Assembly (NCBI GenBank): GCA_002718455.1
Contig: PBER01000010.1
Location: forward strand, 26,016 to 90,015
Direction of reading: 5' to 3'
From: Chloroflexota bacterium
Lineage (GTDB): Bacteria; Chloroflexota; Dehalococcoidia; Lucifugimonadales; Lucifugimonadaceae
Length of the DNA: 64,000 nt
The notes under the pieces were generated by a model. That model ran no database searches and was not told the DNA's origin. It was given only the letters and a program-made list of their open reading frames with translations. Below, in pieces: positions 25,430 through 37,819 of the stretch; the stretch's first letter is position 1, and every line of letters starts with the position of its first letter. Both the position numbers and the translations under genes were made by a program.

Positions 25430-27421
25430 TTAAGTTGTTTTACTCACAATATTTTTTCTCAATTCACTTATTTGATCTCTTATGATGGCTGCTTTTTCAA
25501 ATTCTAAAGATTTAGCTGAATTTTTCATTTCTTTTTCTAATTCTTTGATTAATTTTGTTATTTGTTTTGGGGTATAATCTTCTTTTATTTCTACAATATC
25601 TTCTCCTAGTTGATTCTCCTTTATTCTAGCAGTTAAATCTTTGACTTCTTTTACTATTTTTTTAGGTATTATATTGTTCTTTTTATTATGATCTTTTTGT
25701 AATTCTCTTCTACGATATGTCTCAGATATGGCAAAATCCATCGACCTTGTTATTTTGTCCGCATACATTATCACTTTTCCCTCATCATGCCTAGCAGCTC
25801 TTCCGATGGTTTGAATTAATGATGTTGAAGATCTAAGATATCCTTCTTTATCTGCATCTAAAATTGCAACTAATGAGACTTCAGGTAAATCTAATCCTTC
25901 TCTTAAAAGATTTATACCAACTACTACATCGTATGTACCCAAACGAAGATCTCTTAAAATCTCAATTCTTTCTATTGTGTCTATTTCTGAATGAAGATAG
26001 TGCACTTTAATACCGATTTCTCTCATATATTCTGATAATTCCTCTGACATTTTTTTTGTTAAAGTTGTCACCAAACATCTTTGTTTTTTTTCAATATTAT
26101 TTTGTATTCTATTTACTAAATTATCTATTTGATTTTTTGTTGGTTCTACAATTATTTCAGGATCTAGTAAACCTGTTGGTCTAATTATTTGCTCTACCCG
26201 ATCTTGCTGCTCATTATTTTCGTAATTTCCTGGAGTAGCTGATACGAAAACAGTTTGGGGTATTTTATTTTCAAATTCGTTGAAGTTTAAAGGTCTGTTA
26301 TCTTTAGCTGAAGGAAGTCTGAATCCATGCTCAACTAACGTTGTTTTTCTTGAAAAATCTCCTTTATACATTCCATTTATTTGAGGTATAGTTATATGAG
26401 ATTCATCGATAAAAATCATATAATCTTCATTAAAATAATCCAATAGTGTCCAAGGTGCACTTCCTGGCTTTCTTCTACCTAAATGTAATGAATAATTTTC
26501 TACACCAGGACAAGACCCTGTTTCACGAAGCATTTCCAAATCGTAATTTGTTCGTTCACGCAATCTTTGTGCTTCTAATAATTTTCCTTCTTTTTCTAAT
26601 TCGTCTAATCTGAGGGATAATTCATTTTGTATGTCATCTATTGCATCTTTTAAACTTTCTTCAGGAGTAACAAAATGTTTACTTGGATAAATAGAAATTT
26701 TTTCCATATTTCTAAGTTTGTTTTTTGTTAACACATCTATTTCTGTAATTGTTTCTATTTCATTTCCATAAAATTCTATTCTGATTGAAAATTCTTCATA
26801 GGAAGGCATTATTTCAACTATATCTCCCTTGATTGAAAAAGTACCTCTTTTATTTTCATAATCATCTCGCATGAAGTACATTGAAATAAGCTTTTTAGAT
26901 AAATCACTTGATTTAATTTCATCTCCAACATTTAAATCAACTGAAATCGATTTGTATTCTTTAGGAGATCCTAGACCGTAAATACAAGATACCGATGCAA
27001 CTATAATTGTGTCATTTCTTGTTAAAACAGATCTGGTGGATGCATGTCTGAGTCTGTCTATTTCATCATTGATATCTGATTCTTTTTCAATATAAGTATC
27101 GGTTCTTGGTAAATATGCTTCTGGTTGATAATAATCATAGTATGAAACGAAATATTGAACAGAATTATGAGGAAAAAACTCTTGGAGTTCACTAGCCAAC
27201 TGAGCAGCTAAAGTTTTATTATGAGCTATTACTAAAGTTGGTCTTTGCACACTTTCTATAATTCCAGCCATGGTGTAAGTTTTTCCTGACCCTGTGACTC
27301 CCATTAAAGTTTGAAATCTCAAACCATTTTTTAAACCATCAACTAATTTTGAGATGGCTTTTGGTTGATCCCCGGTATGCTCAAAGGGTGAAACAATTTT
27401 GAATTTATTAGCTTTATTAAT
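25430..27421 (-). CDS. uvrB: Excinuclease ABC subunit B; proposed non-canonical ATT start at 27421..27419
   Basis: [34 protein letters not shown] domain at C-terminus. The conserved N-terminus [32 protein letters not shown] is encoded upstream of the listed start. Confidence 0.93.
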
Positions 27422-28211
27422 AGAATTTCCTTTTTTTACATATAAAAATTATTTCATTTGAATTTTCATCATATTGACCCTTATTATAATCTCCAAAAAT
27501 ATCAATTATTTCTAACCCAATTTCATCTGTTATTCGAATTACATCTTCAATATAGAGAAAATTTTCTACAGAAAATAATTCGACAGATAAATCACTTAGT
27601 TGTATTTTTAGATAATTTTTATGTATTCTTCTTTTAAAATCAACGTCACTTTTACTATATATTTCATAACTTTGCTTATTCAGTATTTTTTTTACTACAA
27701 AAGAGTAATTTTCAGTAGGCTTATAAAGATTAGGGTTGTGTAAATCAAAAATTAATAAACCATCTTTTTTTAGATGTTTGGACCCGATGCATAAAGCTTT
27801 AGTTTGATTATTTTCTGTTCCAGCATTCATTAAGGAATACGATGGATATATAACCAGATCATGAAGTTTATTGTTCATAGTATTATTGTTTTCTCTGATA
27901 TCTAACTTTTTCATATCTTCTTTGATTAAAGTAATTATTCCTTGTAATGGTTGTTTTATCTTAATCTTTGATTTACATACATTTAGCATATCTTGGCTAT
28001 CATCAACTCCAATCCAATTTACTTTATTTTGAAGACAATTTATAGGAACTCTGCCTGTTCCTACTCCCATTTCTAGAATATTTTTTGTTTTTGGAGTCAT
28101 AAAAGATTTATAGAATTCAAGATCATTTGGAGAAATCAAATGGTAAATTATATCGTACCATTTTGACCATTCTTTATAATTAGTTTTAGTTTGGCTCATT
28201 TTATAAATCAT
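27417..28211 (-). CDS. Class I SAM-dependent methyltransferase
   Basis: [17 protein letters not shown] motif [18 protein letters not shown] motif II. Confidence 0.75.
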
Positions 28212-35739: not shown

Positions 35740-36957
35740 ATGGTTATAAAATCTAGCAATAAAATAGAAATACCTATAACAGAATTAGAGCAGTCTGCAT
35801 TTTGTCAAGATGGATCTAATTATAGAACACGTACACTAGAAGAGGAATTTAAATCGGGTGTTCGTTGGCAAAAAATACCTACAAGATATCTAAAACTTTC
35901 TCCAGAAGAAATTCAGGATTCAATAGCTGAAATAAAAAACTCATTGAAAAATCGAATCGTAGTATTGGGTCATCATTACCAAAGAGAAGACGTCATAAAA
36001 TATTCTGATATTCAAGGCGATTCATTCTTATTGTCAAAATTGGCAAGTGAAATGCAAAATTCAGAAATAATAATTTTTTGTGGAGTTCATTTTATGGCTG
36101 AAACTGCGGAAATCTTATCAAATGACAACCAAAAAGTTATTTTGCCAAATATGGCCGCAGGATGTTCAATGGCAGATATGGCAAGTTTTACTCAAGTTAA
36201 GGAATCATGGGTACAATTAACCTCTCAGTTGCAATCGAAGTCAGTAAAGAAGCCAATTATTCCAATTACTTATATGAATAGTACAGCATCAATAAAAGCT
36301 CATTGTGGTAAAAATGATGGAATTGTTTGCACGTCATCAAATGCATATAAAGCATTCGATTGGGCATTTAAAAAAGGAGAGAAAATTTTGTTTCTTCCTG
36401 ATCAACATTTGGGAAGAAATACTGCATATGATTATGGAATAAAAGAAGAAGAAATTTCTATATGGGACCCTTATGTTCCAAACGGAGGATTATCAGATCT
36501 TCAATTGTCTAACTCTAAGGTAATACTGTGGAAGGGACATTGTTCAGTTCATACTAGATTTACCGTTCAACAAATAGAATCTGCAAAAATAAAATTTCCA
36601 GATGTAAATATTTTAGTTCATCCTGAATGTACAAACGAAGTAGTATCAATGGCTGATTTTGTAGGTTCAACTGAATATATAAAAAATACTATAGATAATG
36701 CCCCTGCAAAATCTAAATGGGCTATTGGCACAGAGATTAATTTAGTTAAAAGATTAGCAAATACAAACAAGGATAAAAATATTTTTTGTTTAGATGATAT
36801 GATTTGTCCATGTTCAACAATGTATAGAGTTCACCCAGCATACCTATTATGGGTACTAGAAGGATTGGTTGCTGGTTATGTTATAAATCAAATAAAAGTA
36901 GAAGAAGAAGTAAAAGATTATGCAAAAATTGCTCTTCAAAGAATGTTAGATTTATAA
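35740..36957 (+). CDS. nadA: Quinolinate synthase A
   Basis: VVLGHHYQREDVIKYSDIQGDS, ILVHPECTNEVVSMADFVGST, MICPCSTMYRVHPAYLLW. Confidence 0.95.
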   Translation: MVIKSSNKIEIPITELEQSAFCQDGSNYRTRTLEEEFKSGVRWQKIPTRYLKLSPEEIQDSIAEIKNSLKNRIVVLGHHYQREDVIKYSDIQGDSFLLSKLASEMQNSEIIIFCGVHFMAETAEILSNDNQKVILPNMAAGCSMADMASFTQVKESWVQLTSQLQSKSVKKPIIPITYMNSTASIKAHCGKNDGIVCTSSNAYKAFDWAFKKGEKILFLPDQHLGRNTAYDYGIKEEEISIWDPYVPNGGLSDLQLSNSKVILWKGHCSVHTRFTVQQIESAKIKFPDVNILVHPECTNEVVSMADFVGSTEYIKNTIDNAPAKSKWAIGTEINLVKRLANTNKDKNIFCLDDMICPCSTMYRVHPAYLLWVLEGLVAGYVINQIKVEEEVKDYAKIALQRMLDL

Positions 36958-36973
36958 AATAAAGGATATTCCA

Positions 36974-37819
36974 ATAAATAACTCAAACATTCTAAATTTA
37001 GATACTATAATAGACTTGGCTATCGAAGAAGATCTACATTTAGGGGACATAACTACAGAGAGTTTGAATCTTAATTCAGAAAACGTGTCTTGCAAAATAG
37101 TATCAAAGGCTAAAGGAATTTTATCAGGCAATGGGGTTGCAAGTAGAGTTTTCAAGAAAATTGATGAATCGATTGAATATACAGAACAAACAAAAGATTC
37201 AGAAACTCTAAATAATGGAACTGTAATCGCAAACATATTTGGAGATAAAAACTCCATACTCACAGCGGAGCGTACTGCATTAAATTTTCTTCAGAGAATG
37301 TCAGGCGTAGCATCAATAACAAATGAATATGTAAATTTAGTAAAAAATATTTCTATATTTGATACAAGAAAAACCATACCTGGATGGCGTACTTTAGATA
37401 AATATGCAGTTAAATGTGGCGGAGGAAATAATCATAGAATGAATTTAGGTGATGGCTTATTAATTAAAGATAATCATATTTCAGCTGCTAATAAACAAGG
37501 GATATCGATAAAAGAATTAGTGGAAAAATCAAGAAATAATTCTCCTAAAAATTTGAAAATAGAAATCGAAGTTGACCGCTTAGATTTACTTAAAGAAGTT
37601 GTTGATACAAATATTGACATTATCATGTTAGATAATATGACTGATAAAATGATACAAAAATCAATCGAGATTATAAGAGGTAGAAAAATTATAGAAGTTT
37701 CTGGAAATGTTGATAAAGAAAGAATAGCCGAGCTTGACAACATTATAGGCATTGATATTGTATCAATAGGTAAAATTACTCATTCTGCAAAAGCCTTGGA
37801 TATATCTTTGATTATCTAG
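36974..37819 (+). CDS. nadC: Nicotinate-nucleotide pyrophosphorylase; proposed ATA start at 36974
   Basis: EEDLHLGDITTES, ERTALNFLQRMSGVAS, DTRKTIPGWRTLDKYAVKCGGGNNHRMNLGDGLLIKDNH. Frame extends upstream of the listed TTG start. Confidence 0.93.
   Translation: MNNSNILNLDTIIDLAIEEDLHLGDITTESLNLNSENVSCKIVSKAKGILSGNGVASRVFKKIDESIEYTEQTKDSETLNNGTVIANIFGDKNSILTAERTALNFLQRMSGVASITNEYVNLVKNISIFDTRKTIPGWRTLDKYAVKCGGGNNHRMNLGDGLLIKDNHISAANKQGISIKELVEKSRNNSPKNLKIEIEVDRLDLLKEVVDTNIDIIMLDNMTDKMIQKSIEIIRGRKIIEVSGNVDKERIAELDNIIGIDIVSIGKITHSAKALDISLII

Follow-up and report, generated by a model that had tools for sequence, protein, structure and literature searches.

AUH start codons in described systems

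Translation initiation at AUA, AUU or AUC (collectively AUH; NTG denotes ATG, GTG and TTG) is itself established, and such starts are usually treated as curiosities. In infC, where AUU, AUA or AUC codons serve the autoregulation of IF3 in E. coli (PMC5472188), Streptomyces and S. aureus, a conserved AUH codon with a Shine-Dalgarno (SD) sequence operates alongside a normal initiator tRNA. The AUU start of E. coli pcnB is presented, in the title of a paper cited in PMC13009471, as the second chromosomal example. Four AUH sites are reported genome-wide in S. aureus, with AUA in ccpN and citZ and AUU in cvfC1, and AUA and AUU starts there give about 10% of AUG activity (PMC13009471). Streptomyces sigR has a conserved GTC start that gene callers overlooked and for which repression by IF3 has been proven experimentally (PMC5472188). 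Of 61,358 starts that were ancestrally AUG in 36 groups of genomes, one had changed to AUU (PMC5622118).

The DNA analysed here (the window, 64 kb on contig C10) belongs to a 1.3 Mb assembly (G000; about 30% GC, 83% complete) whose size and GC content match the streamlined, small-genome SAR202 bacteria of the ocean (Dehalococcoidia; PMC11994032). It was compared within a set of nine genomes of the genus (G000 to G008, G000 included), mostly metagenome assemblies, the nearest relative being G002 (Dehalococcoidia MAG JAPYUX010000001; NadC 93% identical), and sequence was sampled beyond the window from G000 (464 kb), G005 (900 kb) and G002 (500 kb). As in the described infC systems, conserved AUH codons with SDs are found beside an initiator tRNA that looks normal, and infC itself starts at AUA here, but infC is one gene under feedback from its own product whereas here many unrelated genes are concerned. 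With sigR the likeness is a conserved non-NTG start that annotation misses, and the difference lies in the codon and in the experimental proof, the AUH starts here being read from sequence. With S. aureus it is the use of AUA and AUU by an ordinary bacterium, although there each genome has just a few such genes, their SDs being extended, and here at least 6 of 353 are concerned, with moderate SDs. A literature search found nothing on SAR202 start codons, and a spread of AUH over many genes with fixation throughout a lineage is, as far as we found, undescribed.

The start of nadC

The upstream gene nadA is followed by nadC in all nine genomes, and the product in the window, an enzyme of NAD synthesis, scores 274.5 bits against the NadC profile TIGR00078 (curated cut-off 198.4). 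The earlier note had placed the start of nadC at ATA 36974 behind AAAGGA, and on re-reading its positions for the TAG, the AAAGGA, the ATA and the TTG at 37016 are all exact (Table 1). After the TAG the frame runs ATT TAT AAA ATA AAG GAT ATT CCA ATA (36974) AAT AAC TCA, and the first in-frame NTG, as that note had also said, is the TTG at 37016, which has no SD and leaves M-A-I-E before EDLHLGD. Three further AUH codons precede the ATA (ATT 36950, ATA 36959 and ATT 36968, the last 1 nt from the SD); none is conserved across the genus.

Table 1. Positions in the window of the nadC and uvrB loci
Feature	Position	Strand	Remarks
nadA, upstream gene	35740..36957	+	stop 16 nt before AUA, just 5' of the SD; ATG start conserved 9/9
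In-frame TAG bounding the nadC frame	36947-36949	+	
Shine-Dalgarno AAAGGA of nadC	36961..36966	+	7 nt spacer to AUA; AAGG conserved 9/9
nadC, carboxylating nicotinate-nucleotide diphosphorylase	36974..37819	+	281 codons from AUA; orthologues in all nine genomes
AUA start codon of nadC (putative)	36974..36976	+	column holds AUA or AUU in all nine genomes, never NTG
TTG, standard caller's choice, rejected as start	37016..37018	+	not conserved; inside modelled helix 17-30
uvrB	25430..27421	-	AUU start 27421..27419; 664 codons including stop; NF003673 equivalog 1029.9 bits
Shine-Dalgarno AAAGGA of uvrB	27428..27433	-	6 nt before AUU

The case for the ATA comes from the genus. Its column holds ATA in seven genomes (G000, G001, G002, G004, G005, G006 and G008) and ATT in two (G003 and G007), so that A and T are invariant, and no NTG occurs at the nadC N-terminus in any of the nine. 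An AAGG precedes the codon at a variable spacing in every one of them, a motif met in the −15 to −6 window of 2.3% of random positions; the SD duplex energies, −3.3 to −5.6 kcal/mol, are moderate and are reached by 5-16% of random positions. Just four codons upstream of the AUH codon, the frame is closed by a stop in G003, G005, G007 and G008, so that no upstream start is possible in these four, and similarity among the orthologous N-termini extends up to the AUH codon. An assembly error at the nadC start was rejected, since the same layout recurs in nine assemblies.

A start at TTG 37016 or another downstream NTG, giving a shorter N-terminus, would be the conventional choice, the TTG being the first NTG of the frame and the TIGR00078 profile beginning just two residues before it. 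That TTG is however private to G000; it is TTA in G002 and absent from the others, where the next NTG lies further downstream, and so the prospect that orthologues would show NadC beginning there, raised in the earlier note, is not what the clade displays. In an AlphaFold2 model (mean pLDDT 86.7) residues 1-12 are disordered and residues 17-30 form a helix, with the ATA at residue 9 and the TTG at residue 23 (L23), so that a TTG start would cut helix 1 and an AUA start would keep it whole. Taken with the missing SD and with similarity reaching back to the AUH codon, this makes a downstream start very improbable. Slightly more improbable still is a NadA-NadC fusion made by stop readthrough or frameshifting. 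It has in its favour the position of nadC immediately after nadA and, in several congeners, a shared frame; however the relative frame varies (in G005 and G008 nadC follows a stop in one frame with nadA, and in G000 and G004 the two genes are in different frames), so that different species would need different tricks, and what is conserved is the AAGG-spacer-AUH layout and not the nadA/nadC junction.

Initiation at the AUH codon is thus left as the reading that the alignments favour, and almost certainly nadC starts at AUA or AUU in the nine species, with no normal start codon. This appears to be private to the genus, as among SAR202 relatives and diverse bacteria outside it an NTG falls in the interval from −12 to +8 codons around the column in 94 of 95 nadC genes, and the remaining one has an ATG at −13. 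As a separate observation, three genomes of genus g6 (L164, L174 and L175) share an ATG placed 13 codons ahead of where nadC usually starts, possibly an N-terminal extension.

Probable AUH starts in other genes

When the start regions of 54 genes of the window were compared with up to eight congeners, a conserved NTG was found in nearly all, the clear exceptions being nadC and uvrB. The AUU of uvrB overlaps the stop of the gene upstream (AUUAA); the AUH start that the earlier note had proposed for this gene is present in G000 and its nearest relative G002 (2/9), and the other seven congeners have ATG. Elsewhere in the window two adjacent and very similar 251-codon genes on one strand (1055-1810 and 1869-2624) apparently represent a tandem duplication.

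In the larger samples of sequence 353 genes could be compared between G000 and G005, and 274 of these share an NTG column; the remaining 79 were reviewed manually. Six in G000 proved to be without a usable NTG, and in each of them an AUH stands where the start would be expected; these are nadC, uvrB, infC, recF, folD and an ABC ATPase. As AUH makes up 10.1% of codons, six of six would arise by chance with a probability of about 1e-6, a figure that is indicative since the genes were classed by eye. At least 1.7% of comparable genes (6/353; 95% interval 0.6-3.7%) would then have AUH starts in G000, and the same review in G005 gave recF, folD, nadC, infC, valS and folE. At published rates of two to four per genome, the chance of finding 6/353 would be roughly 2e-5 to 2e-8, a calculation that compares different methods, and the excess over other genomes rests on these literature rates.

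Two kinds of gene emerge. In the first the AUH codon is constant: infC has AUA in nine of nine genomes, rsfS AUA with an SD in eight of eight, and recF AUH in all nine with hardly any SD in the genus. Position 1 of the RecF profile NF010680 coincides with the AUA, and of the 21 outgroup sequences compared 20 carry AUH in this column (ATG in G054, L358). Across the recF family column (L295-L303, L339-L359) AUC is found in GC-rich genomes and AUA or AUU in AT-rich ones, and in L349 and L340 an in-frame stop stands directly 5' of it. AUH is likely to be the recF start in the GC-rich outgroups too, to judge from these alignments, where several frames are open upstream, some with an NTG there. The second kind comprises uvrB, folD, valS, folE and the ABC ATPase, in which AUH has been exchanged with AUG or GUG from one species to another, indicating that AUH is tolerated there. 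AUU or AUC is present in valS in 5/8 and AUU in folD in 4/8, and folE has GTG in G000 (C5:45613-46173, L234) and AUA in G005 (C6) with AGGAGG ahead of both. Full-length valS occurs twice in G007, on separate contigs (L307; C21:51913-54546); the copies share 74% and 73% identity with the query and may reflect contamination or a mixture of strains.

A conserved AUH codon alone is indistinguishable from an internal Ile codon, and the case is built on close upstream stops and the absence of NTG. Two automated approaches proved too noisy and gave no support: when an unsupervised EM was run on the full set of 61 codons, probability leaked to codons beside the start, and when shared columns were tested for SDs against decoy families of codons, the decoy AAH picked up more genes than ATH. 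Relying on G002 alone, at 93% identity, raised false flags, since conservation there extends into the upstream DNA as well.

The earlier note had read nadC and uvrB as signs of a lineage-wide relaxed start-codon rule. The phenomenon is larger than was stated there, extending to infC, recF, rsfS, folD, valS, folE and the ABC ATPase, so that its lineage-wide character is borne out, and it concerns a minority of about 1.7% of testable genes; some of these AUH starts are conserved rather than loosely tolerated.

Initiation machinery and the proposed role of weak starts

A relaxed rule seated in the machinery is not borne out by ordinary-looking IF3, initiator tRNA and 16S 3' end. The initiator tRNA of G005 (L196:1501-1575) has the CAU anticodon, the GGG/CCC stem and, at its acceptor end, U1 paired with G72. 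The tRNA loci read in G000, an 83% complete assembly, included no recognisable initiator. The 16S tail reads GGATCACCTCCTTTCT, with a normal anti-SD, and IF3 aligns over its whole length to E. coli IF3, so that by full-length alignment in the case of IF3, and by inspection of the G005 tRNA and the anti-SD, no obvious defect was seen. A change of code by which AUA is read as Met and is an ordinary start might be suggested by AUA being the commonest AUH start here. In alignments of 2248 internal AUA codons, however, 72% stand opposite Ile, and Met is missing from the six residues most often found there (the sixth at 1.3%); AUU and AUC also serve as starts, and the idea is refuted for practical purposes. 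The AUH starts here are no code change, and a machinery defect behind them is not visible.

A more serious contender, and one that we consider unlikely without dismissing it, is that AUH starts have no regulatory role and arose purely by drift, the genome being AT-rich and its initiation apparatus lax. The 30% GC of the genome and the exchange of NTG and AUH between species in uvrB, valS, folD and folE speak for it. Against it nadC, rsfS, infC and recF have never gone back to AUG in nine species, though a single transition would turn AUA into AUG; relatives of 55-66% GC likewise have AUH in the recF column, and IF3, initiator tRNA and anti-SD have a normal appearance.

We favour instead a mechanism in which translation of nadC would begin at AUA 36974 with the usual initiator fMet-tRNA, positioned by the AAAGGA, and ribosomes terminating on nadA 16 nt upstream would probably aid initiation by coupling. 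The pairing of AUH codons with CAU would be weak at the third base, and such pairing is disfavoured by IF3 (PMC10158994), so translation may be low and IF3-sensitive, and NadC may be held below NadA from one message by its weak start. In nadC, recF, rsfS and infC the weak start, kept across species, probably holds translation low and responsive to IF3. That nadC starts at AUA 36974, and that AUH is a regular minority start class of this SAR202 genus, conserved as a weak start in some genes and tolerated in others, we regard as very probable. More tentatively, and with slightly more doubt than belief, AUH might be a standing second start class of SAR202 at large, marking a weakly translated, IF3-controlled gene set (nadC, recF, rsfS, infC and others) with some AUH starts fixed family-wide irrespective of GC content.

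Standard gene finders would mis-annotate the AUH-start genes of these SAR202 bacteria. A lineage with AUH in more than 1% of its genes, some of them conserved through a family, would if true be one whose proteins gene callers truncate or lose, and would offer a natural system for asking what purpose the discrimination by IF3 serves.
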